A DNA stretch of 42,837 nucleotides from Candidatus Moranbacteria bacterium CG_4_9_14_3_um_filter_44_28 (GTDB lineage Bacteria > Patescibacteriota > Minisyncoccia > Moranbacterales > UBA11712), in contig PFVO01000010.1 of the NCBI GenBank assembly GCA_002790655.1, positions 1-42,837 of the forward strand, in the 5' to 3' direction. Positions 12,918-40,604 of the stretch are shown here, one piece after another. Made by a program: the position numbers and the translations under genes. Positions within the stretch are counted from its first letter, which is position 1. Each line of letters begins with the position of its first letter. The notes below the pieces were generated by a model that did not search any database, was not told where the DNA came from, and was given only the letters and a program-made list of their open reading frames with translations.

Positions 12918-13124
12918 GCGATGCTAATCTGCGAATAAATGCCTGCCCGAAATGCTTTGATTGTTATCGAAGTGATTACAAAATAACAAGCTAATAAGTT
13001 TATCGAGGAATAACAAATGTGGACAGAGGCATTTCAAAGCAGGCGGGCTAATCAACGAATCACGAATTTTATTCGCACATTCGCAATTCGTTGATTCGCA
13101 TTTATTTGCGGATTCGCATCACAC
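12918..13124. repeat. long nested palindromic element (TTCGCAATTCG family), copy A
   Basis: GATGCTAATCTGCGAATAAA (12920 on) is the inverted counterpart of TTATTTGCGGATTCGCATC (ending 13120). Inner arms CCTGCCCGAAATGC and GCATTTCAAAGCAGGCGGG also pair imperfectly. It fills the whole gap between two minor pilin genes; one end abuts the pilW-like stop codon. Related copies lie at 15201-15252 and 38591-38665. Confidence 0.8.
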
Positions 13125-13757
13125 CTACCAGTTATCTTTTAAATTTCTCAGCATTACATATGATTCGAGACGAATATTGTTCGGCGCCCGGAACGGATCG
13201 ATATTGACATACGCGTCAACCTTCACGAGCCTGATATCCGCAACGGGAGAAACCGGAGCCGCTAGCGGATTATTGACCTGATCCGCTGGATAGTCGGTGT
13301 TGAAATAGCTGAATATAGGCTGCACGGCGCTATTCACTACAGATTCGGCTATCGTTGTCACCGTTTCATCACCCGCCGGATATGACGGAGGCGTACCGCT
13401 GGGATTGCTTATGCCTCTTTTTATCAAATTATTTTCCAGATAATAATGAACTTTTTCCGTGACATTGTCTTTGTCCACATCGGAATAAAAAATAAAATCA
13501 AAATCGTCCGCGGATTCTATGGGATATGCTCCCGTGTCGGACTGCCGCATGCCCCGGATATCCTCGATTATGTATTTCAGGCTGTGCTCCACCGCGGCCA
13601 CCGACATTCCCTGCTCCATCGCGAATCCGTAGTTTTTGTATATCCGGTGCAGAACATAAACCGAACTGAACATCATCAGAATAAAAATGAACATGGCAAT
13701 GAGCATTTCAACGAGAGTCATGCCACTTTGAGCAAACTTTTCGGCTTTGATTCTCAT
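13125..13757 (-). CDS. PilW-like minor pilin with type IV prepilin signal
   Basis: A 210-residue protein with leader MRIKAEKFAQSG followed by MTLVEMLIAMFIFILMMFS, a class III prepilin signal with cleavage expected after Gly12 and Glu at mature position 5. The remaining extracytoplasmic domain includes a predicted beta-rich region ending LESYVMLRNLKDNW. It sits 17 bases after the PilV-like gene and upstream of the PilX-like gene, matching pilV-pilW-pilX order. The prepilin peptidase needed to process it is not in this window. Confidence 0.87.
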   Translation of the reverse strand: MRIKAEKFAQSGMTLVEMLIAMFIFILMMFSSVYVLHRIYKNYGFAMEQGMSVAAVEHSLKYIIEDIRGMRQSDTGAYPIESADDFDFIFYSDVDKDNVTEKVHYYLENNLIKRGISNPSGTPPSYPAGDETVTTIAESVVNSAVQPIFSYFNTDYPADQVNNPLAAPVSPVADIRLVKVDAYVNIDPFRAPNNIRLESYVMLRNLKDNW

Positions 13758-15200: not shown

Positions 15201-15252
15201 CGTGGCATTCGCAATTCGTTGATTCGCATCTATTCGCGGATTAGCATCACAC
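15201..15252. repeat. half copy of the TTCGCAATTCG element (copy B)
   Basis: TTCGCAATTCGTTGATTCGC followed by ATCTATTCGCGGATTAGCATCACACC, nearly identical to the right half of copy A. It directly follows the pilC stop codon on the coding strand. Confidence 0.8.
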
Positions 15253-16461
15253 CTACATTTGCTCCATCACCGAATACATCGGCAAGATCATCGAGACGGC
15301 AAAAAAACCGACGGCCGAGCCAATGATGACCATCAAAACCGGTTCTATGATCGAGGAAAGATTCTTGGTCATCTGGTTGATTTCGCTTTCATAGAATCTC
15401 GCCAGATTCAGAAGCACGTCGACCGTTTTTCCTGTTTCCTCCCCTACCTCCATCATCTGGACGGTAAGAACCGGGAAAATCCGGGGATATTTGGCCAGCC
15501 CTTCGTGAATCGGTTTTCCTTTCTCGACTTCTTCGCTTATTTGCCAGAGAGCCTTTTTATAGGAATCATTCGTCAGAGTTCTGGAAATGATTTTCAGCGA
15601 TTCAACAACAGAAACCCCGCTTTTTGTGAGTGAGCTGTAGATACGCACGAAACGCGCGTTATTCACCTTTATCACGACATTTCTTATCACCGGAGTTCTG
15701 AAAAAAACGAAGTTAAAAACCTTTTTCCCTATTCTGGACTTGAAGAAAACGACAAGCGCCGCCACGACGAAAATGATGCCAAAAAGAACCAGCCATTGGT
15801 GAGTGGACATGAAATCGCTGGCGGCGATAATCATCCGCGTCGAAAATGGAAGGGTTGTCTGGATATCGGAAAAAACCGTCGTCAGTTTGGGGACAACGTA
15901 CATCATCATGGCAATTCCGACTGCGATCATAACCAAAACAATCACCGCCGGATAATACATCGCCCCTCTCACCCGGCTCAAAAGAGTATGCTCCTTTTCA
16001 AGCTGGTTGGCCAGAAGCACCAGAACTTCCTCAAGATTTCCGCCAACTTCTCCGACCCGGACCATATTGACCGACAATTCATCAAAGACCGGGTGTTTTT
16101 CGAGGCTATCCGCCAGGCTGTTTCCCATTTTGACATCCCGACCCAACTCTTCCAGGATTCTCCTGAATTTCCTGCTCTTTGACTGATTTGAAATAACTTC
16201 AAGCGATTTTGGGAGGGAAAGCCCCGAAGAAAGCATTACCCCCAGATGCTTGGCAAACATCATTTTGTCTTTGAGCGATACACCGGAAAACATCGGGAAT
16301 TTTGTTTCCTTTTCTTTTTTCTCTTCCTTTTCTGTTATCGCCGTCACAAAGAAACCTTCCGTGCGAAGCGCCTCAACAACCGATCTTTTGTCTTTCCCTT
16401 CGATATCTCCGCTTTTTATTTCTCCTTCCGAGCTTTTAGCAATGTAATTGAATGTAGGCAC
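15253..16461 (-). CDS. pilC: type IV pilus inner-membrane platform protein PilC
   Basis: A 402-residue polytopic protein with two type II secretion F domains. The first (MFAKHLGVMLSSGLSLPKSLEVI) and second (VRIYSSLTKSGVSVVESLKII) are each followed by VGEVGGNLEEVL or VGEETGKTVDVLL motifs. Three membrane helices lie at about 165-190, 217-237 and 371-395. PilC is the rotor/platform on which PilB acts. It begins MPTFNYIAKSSEGEIKSG, the usual PilC opening, and starts 26 bases after the pilB stop. Confidence 0.96.
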   Translation of the reverse strand: MPTFNYIAKSSEGEIKSGDIEGKDKRSVVEALRTEGFFVTAITEKEEKKEKETKFPMFSGVSLKDKMMFAKHLGVMLSSGLSLPKSLEVISNQSKSRKFRRILEELGRDVKMGNSLADSLEKHPVFDELSVNMVRVGEVGGNLEEVLVLLANQLEKEHTLLSRVRGAMYYPAVIVLVMIAVGIAMMMYVVPKLTTVFSDIQTTLPFSTRMIIAASDFMSTHQWLVLFGIIFVVAALVVFFKSRIGKKVFNFVFFRTPVIRNVVIKVNNARFVRIYSSLTKSGVSVVESLKIISRTLTNDSYKKALWQISEEVEKGKPIHEGLAKYPRIFPVLTVQMMEVGEETGKTVDVLLNLARFYESEINQMTKNLSSIIEPVLMVIIGSAVGFFAVSMILPMYSVMEQM

Positions 16462-38262: not shown

Positions 38263-38409
38263 TTAATTATTCTGAACTTTGCGAGCTTTATAAATAATCC
38301 GGGCAACCCTCTCCTGTCTCGTTTCTATATCCTCCAGCTTTTTCAGCGCCTTGCTATAGGCTTCTCTCATCCGCTCCAGATCCTTTTGCACTTTTTCCTC
38401 GTCAAACAT
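38263..38409 (-). CDS. 48-residue helical protein (not in the ORF track)
   Basis: An open frame ATG at 38409 to TAA at 38263, giving MFDEEKVQKDLERMREAY...RKVQNN. The composition is charged and alanine/leucine-spaced, fitting a single long amphipathic helix. It precedes the 92-residue coiled-coil gene by 16 bases. No homologue recognised and no clear ribosome site. Confidence 0.5.
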   Translation of the reverse strand: MFDEEKVQKDLERMREAYSKALKKLEDIETRQERVARIIYKARKVQNN

Positions 38410-38500
38410 ATCAAAATATCCAGTTATTACATTATAATCCTATCACAAGCGCAGAGGACTTGCCAAGACCCAGACGGTATGATAGACTCTCAATACAATT

Positions 38501-38584
38501 AAGAAAGTCCAAAGTTTCCCCGCCCCTCATGGGATTGGGAAATAAAATCCGCTAAGGAGGACTTTCTTTAGCGGAATTTTTTTT
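38501..38584 (+). ncRNA. candidate attenuator/structured leader RNA upstream of rpsF
   Basis: AAGAAAGTCC (38501-38510) is perfectly complementary to GGACTTTCTT (38559-38568). Between them TTTCCC (38515-38520) pairs with GGGAAA (38537-38542), enclosing CCC/GGG. The 3' strand of the long stem overlaps the terminator hairpin TCCGCTAAGGA/TCTTTAGCGGA (38548-38575), which is followed by eight T. The two folds cannot coexist. An AAGGAGG Shine-Dalgarno-like string lies in the terminator, with no start codon at usual spacing. A TATAAT at 38433-38438 could be its promoter. The known family is not identified. Confidence 0.6.
38548..38584 (+). terminator. intrinsic terminator of the leader RNA
   Basis: An 11-pair stem TCCGCTAAGGA/TCTTTAGCGGA (one G-U), loop GGACTT, then A and eight T. 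It lies upstream of rpsF on the same strand. Confidence 0.85.
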
Positions 38585-38590
38585 GAGCAT

Positions 38591-38665
38591 GATGCTAATC
38601 TACAAATAATACTCGCTTATTCGCAATTCGTTGATTGGCATTTATTTGTAGATTTGCATCACACC
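38591..38665. repeat. TTCGCAATTCG palindromic element, copy C, upstream of rpsF
   Basis: GATGCTAATCTACAAATAAT at the left is the inverted counterpart of TTATTTGTAGATTTGCATC at the right; the centre has TTCGCAATTCGTTGATTGGC. It ends three bases before the rpsF ATG and so occupies the ribosome-binding region. Confidence 0.82.
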
Positions 38666-38667
38666 TT

Positions 38668-39141
38668 ATGGAGTACGAACTTCTCTTTTTCATCTCTGTT
38701 TCCAATGAAGACCGGGTGGACATAATCAAAAAAGAATTGATTGAAATTTTGGAAAGCCTTGGAGCGAAACTCTTGGGCGATTTTACTGATATTGGAAAAA
38801 GGAAATTGGCTTATCCCATCAAGCGCGACACGCACGCTTTTTACAGCTGGGCGCGTTTCACGCTCGACGATGAAAACCGGAACAATATCCCCGAAATTAA
38901 TAAACGTATTTCATTAAATAATAAGATTACCCGTCATCTGATTGTCCGCGCCGACGAAATCGGAAAGCCGGCTTCCGTGGCCGCTCCGGAAACTGAAGTT
39001 GAAAAATTGGCCGCCGAAAAAATAAAGGCCGAAATCAAAAAACCACGGGCGAAAGCAAAGCCAGCCAAAAAGGAATCCAGAGCCGCTCTTTCTGAACTTG
39101 ACGAAAAATTGAGCGAGATTTTAGAAGAAACCCCGGGTTAA
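38668..39141 (+). CDS. rpsF: 30S ribosomal protein bS6
   Basis: A 157-residue protein with the S6 ferredoxin-like fold (MEYELLFFISVSNEDRVDIIKKEL, FTDIGKRKLAYPIKRDTHAFYSWARFTL, ITRHLIVRADE) in the first ~100 residues, plus an Ala/Lys/Glu-rich C-terminal extension. S6 binds the 16S central domain with S18. The track start at 38635 is inside a repeat; the ATG at 38668 is the family start. There is no Shine-Dalgarno because the repeat abuts the ATG. Downstream are ssb and rpsR, the common bacterial order. Confidence 0.95.
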   Translation: MEYELLFFISVSNEDRVDIIKKELIEILESLGAKLLGDFTDIGKRKLAYPIKRDTHAFYSWARFTLDDENRNNIPEINKRISLNNKITRHLIVRADEIGKPASVAAPETEVEKLAAEKIKAEIKKPRAKAKPAKKESRAALSELDEKLSEILEETPG

Positions 39142-39143
39142 TT

Positions 39144-39810
<667 letters not shown>

Positions 39811-39816
39811 ATTAAA

Positions 39817-40044
39817 ATGGATCAACGACCACAGCCAATTGTCAAAAAATCCTGCTACTTTTGCGCCAATAACATCAATGCTATTGACTACAAAGATACG
39901 CAGCTGATGCGGCGTTTTATGAATTCGCAAGCCAAAATTGTCCCGCCCCGCCGGAGCGGAAATTGCTCCAAGCATCAGAGAATGATTGCCAAAACGATCA
40001 AGCGGGCGAGAGCAATGGCGCTTTTGTCATATACGATTAAGTAA
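39817..40044 (+). CDS. rpsR: 30S ribosomal protein bS18
   Basis: A 75-residue S18 with KKSCYFCANNINAIDYKDTQLMRRFM and IVPPRRSGNCSKHQRMIAKTIKRARAMALLSY. The Cys pair of CYFC plus Cys/His of NCSKH make it the zinc-binding (C+) form. It partners S6 on the 30S platform. Its TAA overlaps the efp ATG as TAATG, suggesting translational coupling. Confidence 0.96.
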   Translation: MDQRPQPIVKKSCYFCANNINAIDYKDTQLMRRFMNSQAKIVPPRRSGNCSKHQRMIAKTIKRARAMALLSYTIK

Positions 40045-40604
40045 TGCTTTCTCTCTCCGACATCAAAACCGGGAAAACGATAACCCTCGCCGGCGAACCT
40101 TACGCCGTCATTTTTCACCAGCATTCCAAAATCAGCCGGGCCGGAGCGGTTTTGCGAACGAAGCTCAAAAATTTGCGAACGGGAGCTATTCTCGAAAAAA
40201 ATTTCCAGGGATCAGACAAAATCGAAGAAGCGGAAATTGGAAAGTCCAAAGCCCAGTATTTATACCGCGAAGGGAAAAATTATTTTTTTATGGATAACGT
40301 CAGTTTTGAACAATTTTCCCTTCCCAAGTCCGTTTTGGGAAATTTGACGAATTATTTAATCGATGGCACAGAAGTAATAATTCTGAATTATAATAACAAC
40401 CCGATCAACATCGAACTCCCAATTAAAATGGAATTTCGGGTCGCGGAAGCTCCGCCGGCCATTCGCGGCAACACCGCCGACGGCGGAACGAAACAAGTGA
40501 TGCTCGAAACGGGGATCAAAGTCTCAACGCCTCTTTTTATAAAAGAAGGCGACATCATCCGCATCAACACCGAAACGGGAGAGTATGCTGAACGAGCTAA
40601 GTAG
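40044..40604 (+). CDS. efp: elongation factor P, arginine-tip type
   Basis: A 186-residue, three-domain EF-P that relieves ribosome stalling at polyproline. Domain I is KTITLAGEPYAVIFHQHSKISRAGAVLRTKLKNLRTG; the C-terminal signature GDIIRINTETGEYAER is present. Aligning GEPYAV and KLKNL with E. coli EF-P (equal spacing) puts Arg32 where E. coli has the modified Lys34. Arg at this tip is known from EF-Ps rhamnosylated by EarP. No earP or rhamnose genes are in the window. The gene ends at a bidirectional terminator. Confidence 0.95.
   Translation: MLSLSDIKTGKTITLAGEPYAVIFHQHSKISRAGAVLRTKLKNLRTGAILEKNFQGSDKIEEAEIGKSKAQYLYREGKNYFFMDNVSFEQFSLPKSVLGNLTNYLIDGTEVIILNYNNNPINIELPIKMEFRVAEAPPAIRGNTADGGTKQVMLETGIKVSTPLFIKEGDIIRINTETGEYAERAK

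Follow-up and report, generated by a model that had tools for sequence, protein, structure and literature searches.

What is specified by the DNA directly upstream of the rpsF-ssb-rpsR-efp operon, and to which molecule might it respond? Within the 42,837-nt stretch that was analysed as a whole (the window), an earlier note had marked 38501–38584 as a candidate attenuator ahead of this operon, and the candidate was borne out: covariance model R1, built from 30 relatives, scored 82 bits at the window leader and matched upstream of rpsF at 86 of the 90 order-level loci (E < 0.1). That the leader is a conserved attenuator is held to be nearly certain, and the RNA is apparently undescribed, real and conserved. 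Control by a ribosomal protein is considered probable. The full explanation, anti-antitermination by S6:S18 leading to autorepression, in which we infer effector, binding site and sign, is put forward with moderate confidence.

Promoter, operon and parts of the leader

A sigma-70-like promoter was predicted by consensus scan at 38460–38488 (+), with a −35 element TTGCCA (38460–38465), a 17-nt spacer and an extended −10 element TAGACT (38483–38488; TG-A-TAGACT), from which transcription is predicted to start at about 38495, approximately 6 nt 5′ of the AAGAAAGUCC strand. The RNA would thus begin slightly upstream of the 38501–38584 extent given in the earlier note, of which the stems and coordinates stood. 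Among relatives, 82 have TTGNCAAAA and TATANT elements at constant spacing to the leader 5′ strand, with the presumed start, ACAAYU, directly 5′ of the AAGAAAGUCC strand. Transcription into rpsF from this side, on which the proposal had depended, is consistent with the orientation of this conserved promoter.

The first gene of the operon is rpsF (ribosomal protein S6; 38668–39141, ATG at 38668; PF01250, E 8e-13), followed by ssb (39286–39810; PF00436), rpsR (ribosomal protein S18; 39817–40044; PF01084) and efp (elongation factor P; 40044–40604; PF09285, PF01132 and PF08207), all on the + strand. In relatives an rpsF homologue likewise lies 3′ of the leader, and the order rpsF-ssb-rpsR-efp is kept behind it.

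The leader RNA occupies 38495–38584 (+), is promoter-proximal and comprises a P2/P3 hairpin, the P1 antiterminator stem and an intrinsic terminator. The 5′ strand of P1 (strand a, the antiterminator 5′ arm; 38501–38510, +, AAGAAAGTCC) contains an AAAGUCC core and pairs over 10 bp without mismatch with the 3′ strand (a′, the antiterminator 3′ arm; 38559–38568, +, GGACTTTCTT), which was located by complement search and P1 covariation; the perfect 10-base stem around a nested hairpin that had been described earlier was recovered, the enclosed hairpin lying at 38514–38543 (+). In this hairpin, P2 (GTTTCCC/GGGAAAT) and P3 (CCC/GGG) flank an internal loop of CG (38521–38522) opposite ATT (38534–38536), the latter being ATA in most relatives; P2/P3 is presumed to form the effector-binding core. 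The terminator was delimited by terminator scan and covariation, with 5′ arm b at 38548–38559 (+, TCCGCTAAGGAG) and 3′ arm b′ at 38564–38575 (+, TTCTTTAGCGGA); by tool count, 38548–38575 forms 12 pairs with a 4-nt loop, and a U-tract of 8 T follows at 38577–38584 (+; sequence, terminator scan). Place and T-run thus agreed with the earlier description, and the stem of 11 bases given there was counted as 12 pairs. Strand a′ has bases in common with both the loop and the 3′ arm of the terminator, its overlap with the terminator stem being only partial.

Several neighbouring features were recorded alongside. A hairpin at 38590–38666, with arms of approximately 19 bp, lies between attenuator and rpsF; it was considered as a part of the switch and rejected, being a repeat that is dispersed over its own genome, where it gave 13 matches. 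Copies occur in the window at 13058–13126 and 15207–15254, related copies were seen in many genomes of the order, and the stretch from U-tract to rpsF is mostly much shorter in family members than in the window; the repeat looks like an insertion lengthening this leader. The interval between rpsF and ssb (39140–39285) is AT-rich and inverted-repeat-like (AAAATGCAAAAATCAAAGTGCAAAATGACAG ... complementary bases) and resembles another dispersed element. On the opposite strand, a small ORF of 48 aa (38263–38409, −) starts with MFDEEKVQKDLERMREAYSKALKKL and is divergent from rpsF; its start region was seen by eye at the same place in four family members (G001, G004, G005 and G006).

Conservation and mutual exclusion of the two folds

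The closest rpsF relatives bear the names Ca. Moranbacteria or Moraniibacteriota, by which the window is assigned to Ca. Moranbacteria (Patescibacteria). For the comparison, regions upstream of rpsF were collected from 90 genomes representing 11 families within the order to which the window belongs, and searched both with R1 and with a hand-written parser pattern (AAAGUCC, then P2 with CG/AUA, AUUA or ACCA as internal loop, and a terminator 3′ of it). The pattern was present in 83 of 90; in G001, which was not parsed, it can be made out by eye, and this leader is also matched by the covariance model. The four loci outside the R1 matches comprise three supported by the parser (G056, G044, G028) and one borderline case (G025). 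When whole genomes were searched with R1 at E ≤ 0.005, at most one match per genome was obtained, each just upstream of rpsF. Outside the order, no convincing match was found by scans that were less sensitive, the phylum scan using strict filters by which remote relatives may be missed; weak matches had E values of 0.005–0.03. Two of these were rejected, G326 on locus inspection, with no sign of an adjoining rpsF, and G247 with its match on a contig other than that of rpsF. The class-level scan outside the order gave five more weak R1 matches, locus inspection having covered G326 and G247.

Covariation among relatives had been named in the earlier note as one of two tests by which the proposal could be refuted. 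It is strong, with compensatory changes in each helix. The main test was run on a MAFFT alignment that was not fitted to the structure, using shuffles and slid helices as controls. In this alignment, 85% of the P1/P2/P3 cells were paired (73% in shuffles, 39–66% in slid helices) and 84 cells were changed on both sides, compared with 22.9 in shuffles and 5–27 in slid controls; all cells of the inner P2 pairs and of P3 were paired (100%), with both-side changes in all of these pairs. For the terminator, 33 double-changed cells were counted against 12.0 in shuffles, and 7 of 8 pairs showed compensatory changes. A larger, structure-fitted alignment agrees on covariation, again with compensatory changes in each helix. 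When leaders were tested individually, a P1 complement behind P2 was detected at p < 0.05 in 59 of 83. By these data the leader has a trait of ribosomal-protein leaders: it is a structured RNA with covarying helices that was found at one ribosomal-protein operon alone.

Conservation extends beyond pairing. Six of the seven AAAGUCC positions carry 1.84–2.0 bits (U, 1.0) over 86 relatives and form invariant columns in alignment A1, a value to be read with the preference of parser and model for AAAGUCC-like strands, although the parser allowed approximately 3 mismatches and met almost none. Strand a is mostly more conserved than its pairing partners (alignment positions G9, 1.84 vs 0.31 bits; C12, 1.91 vs 0.48 bits), in keeping with its recognition in unpaired form. 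In the internal loop, the unpaired C, G, A, T and A are conserved, CG and AUA being nearly invariant in an otherwise fast-changing hairpin. A constraint on AAAGUCC beyond pairing is supported at the level of sequence.

Folding calculations were carried out on the window leader. The 96-nt fold was more stable than 200 of 200 dinucleotide shuffles (z −3.4). When the growing transcript was folded at increasing lengths, P2 formed first and then P1 as GGACUUUCUU emerged (ends 38561–38573); P1 + P2 was the minimum-energy form at transcript ends 38567–38573, and terminator + P2 took over at end 38575, at which the 3′ arm is complete, just 5′ of the U-tract. For the full-length RNA, −31.8 kcal/mol was calculated for the terminator form and −29.5 kcal/mol for the antiterminator form; in this model, a terminator lead of about 2 kcal/mol would be a reasonable balance for a switch, yet weighs against a settled default without effector. 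The minimum-energy fold of many full-length relatives retains most of P1 or another pairing of strand a, and the thermodynamic switch calculated for the window is, as modelled, not a clean rule across all relatives.

The terminator and antiterminator folds had been proposed to be mutually exclusive, and shared bases, folding order and the covariation of both helices agree with this. In most relatives it is the loop or the 3′ arm of the terminator that contains the P1 3′ arm; in several members of family f10 (e.g. G067, G022) the P1 complement has shifted to the 3′ arm and U-tract of the terminator. As the register differs in f10 and the folds nevertheless stay exclusive, it may be argued that exclusion itself is what is selected. 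The 5′ leader is thus of the attenuator type, with an antiterminator and an intrinsic terminator that exclude each other and are both conserved. Fold, mutual exclusion, promoter, operon and the AAAGUCC constraint are all supported by sequence comparison. The f10 leaders L082 and L092 are examples of a register shift of the antiterminator 3′ arm with the switch kept. In family f5 (e.g. L054, L102, L104) the terminator hairpin is much longer and the P1 complement lies in or near its apical loop, where strand a would form a loop pseudoknot and would not displace the whole stem.

Effector and sign of control

In the mechanism proposed, the rpsF-ssb-rpsR-efp mRNA would begin with a 5′ leader that acts as a transcription attenuator. 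With the AAGAAAGUCC strand free, it would pair with GGACUUUCUU as this emerges (P1, antiterminator), and RNA polymerase would read into rpsF; with the strand withheld, the terminator would be completed and transcription would stop before rpsF. Free S6:S18 heterodimer would hold the AAAGUCC strand as well as P2/P3 and its CG/AUA loop, and so block P1 (anti-antiterminator), and a surplus of S6 and S18 would shut down their own operon. Such an effector, one that by keeping hold of P2 and of the unpaired strand would prevent P1 and bring about termination, is suggested by the nearly invariant AAAGUCC and CG/AUA. Autoregulation by S6:S18, a known autoregulator of such operons in other bacteria (PMC4647458, PMC10931766), would agree with the operon content and with an element found once per genome and only before rpsF. 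Judged from the operon alone, S6:S18 is the most likely effector, ssb and efp being encoded there too. Against the 16S rRNA of relatives (the window's own assembly yielded none), no convincing case of mimicry of the S6:S18 site emerged: these 16S sequences read GAUA-helix-GGAACACC and the leaders GGAUA-helix-AAnAUCC, a resemblance that is only suggestive.

The same protein pair could also act with the opposite sign. Were S6:S18 to bind the P1-closed form, as in RpsF_leader (RF02893), readthrough would be favoured, and the leader would work in the opposite direction or as a check on S6:S18 availability. In the alignment of RF02893 to E. coli the parts follow one another as they do here, with a closing stem, a hairpin with asymmetric internal loop and a 3′ bulge with UCCG (bulge segments GAAUAAUCCGUAAGGAG in E. 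coli and GAAAUAAAAUCCGCUAAGGAG in the window). The RpsF_leader consensus includes the closing stem; should the bound RNA keep this stem closed, the effect of binding in the present leader would be antitermination. (A/U)CC follows P2 in 72 of 83 leaders, 11 being without it, and if S18 recognised this UCC, binding would work against the terminator and reverse the sign of control. The terminator arm begins with CC in 29 of 44 leaders, compared with 28 of 113 other terminator-like hairpins, many of which may be chance hairpins; however, a strong, GC-rich terminator base needs CC as well. Positive feedback is moreover unusual for ribosomal-protein operons, RF02893 gives no match here, and the stronger constraint on strand a than on a′ would be left unexplained. 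Binding of the P1-closed form is kept as the main rival, yet is on balance rather improbable. Taken together, opposite-sign sensing of S6:S18 or an effector other than a ribosomal protein, in which the bound effector holds the antiterminator closed and the operon on, is regarded as unlikely; if true, the leader would be an order-wide regulatory RNA for which no counterpart was found.

Nearly invariant unpaired bases next to a terminator expression platform are also what would be expected of a riboswitch that senses an ion or small molecule, with P2/P3 and the AAAGUCC strand as aptamer. Such a switch is disfavoured because the element was found only before rpsF, without a second strong copy in the genomes searched; no metabolic or transport gene is associated, and the core (2×3 internal loop and 7-nt strand) is very small, all of which makes a riboswitch very unlikely. 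Little credence is likewise given to SSB or EF-P, or to a protein encoded elsewhere such as S15, as the effector: ssb and efp are conserved in the operon too, but S6:S18 already controls this operon in other bacteria (PMC4647458), and no report of EF-P as such a regulator was found in the literature searched. Equally slim is the chance of an unregulated leader, in which readthrough would be set to a constant level by the terminator, with P1 only adjusting it; such a leader would suit the close energies of terminator and antiterminator and an effector that we infer, but near-invariant AAAGUCC and CG/AUA in a fast-changing hairpin suggest a role in recognition.

Known leaders and significance

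The leader could not be matched to a known class in the earlier note, and this held for Rfam 15, in which no family recognised it, RF02893 included. Membership in RF02893 was rejected by covariance model in both directions: the RF02893 model (gathering threshold 37 bits; E. coli positive control 110 bits) gave no match at E ≤ 10 in window 38400–38750 or in the rpsF regions of 20 relatives, and none over cut-off in 57 relative genomes, with 0 of 3 weak matches located at rpsF; conversely, R1 gave no match to E. coli. Like the present leader, RpsF_leader stands immediately before rpsF in an operon with rpsR and has a closing stem and an asymmetric-loop hairpin. A possible further likeness is the A-rich 3′ bulge with UCC(G), of which the CC(G) is contacted by S18 in RpsF_leader and coincides here with the terminator base. 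The two differ in that output in E. coli is translational (PMC4647458), whereas the closing stem of the present leader has an intrinsic terminator as its competitor, and in that the AAAGUCC strand and CG/AUA loop are absent from the E. coli RNA. S6:S18 binding has also been reported for the B. subtilis RpsF_leader, with an output that appears translational; S6:S18 leaders of known output act on translation.

The S6:S18 leader of Chlorobi (PMC7247131) is similarly lineage-restricted and lies before rpsF-ssb-rpsR; it is confined to Chlorobi and shows, according to its authors, no apparent rRNA mimicry (PMC7247131). The Rfam scan of the leader described here matched no family. The closest likeness in logic is the B. 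subtilis rplJL attenuator, at which a ribosomal-protein complex, L10(L12)4, controls its own operon through overlapping antiterminator and terminator, and for which the use of anti-antiterminator, antiterminator and terminator has been demonstrated (PMC4538822). Protein and fold differ, the anti-antiterminator there being a kink-turn; here, it would consist of the protein-bound strand and hairpin, no third helix having been identified, unlike in L10(L12)4. A search of mainly freely accessible literature gave no such leader in Moranbacteria, Parcubacteria or Patescibacteria. The RNA is most likely a lineage-restricted, attenuator-type ribosomal-protein leader that would respond to S6:S18.

Autoregulation by S6:S18 is known for a widespread leader, which in E. 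coli controls translation, and a candidate leader for it has been described separately in Chlorobi. If the S6:S18 mechanism proposed here is true, a third, unrelated-looking leader, working by transcription attenuation and present order-wide in Patescibacteria, would indicate that this control is readily re-invented. With its small core and clear switch, the leader is directly testable in vitro, and it would provide a first handle on RNA-level control of the ribosome in a mostly uncultured group.
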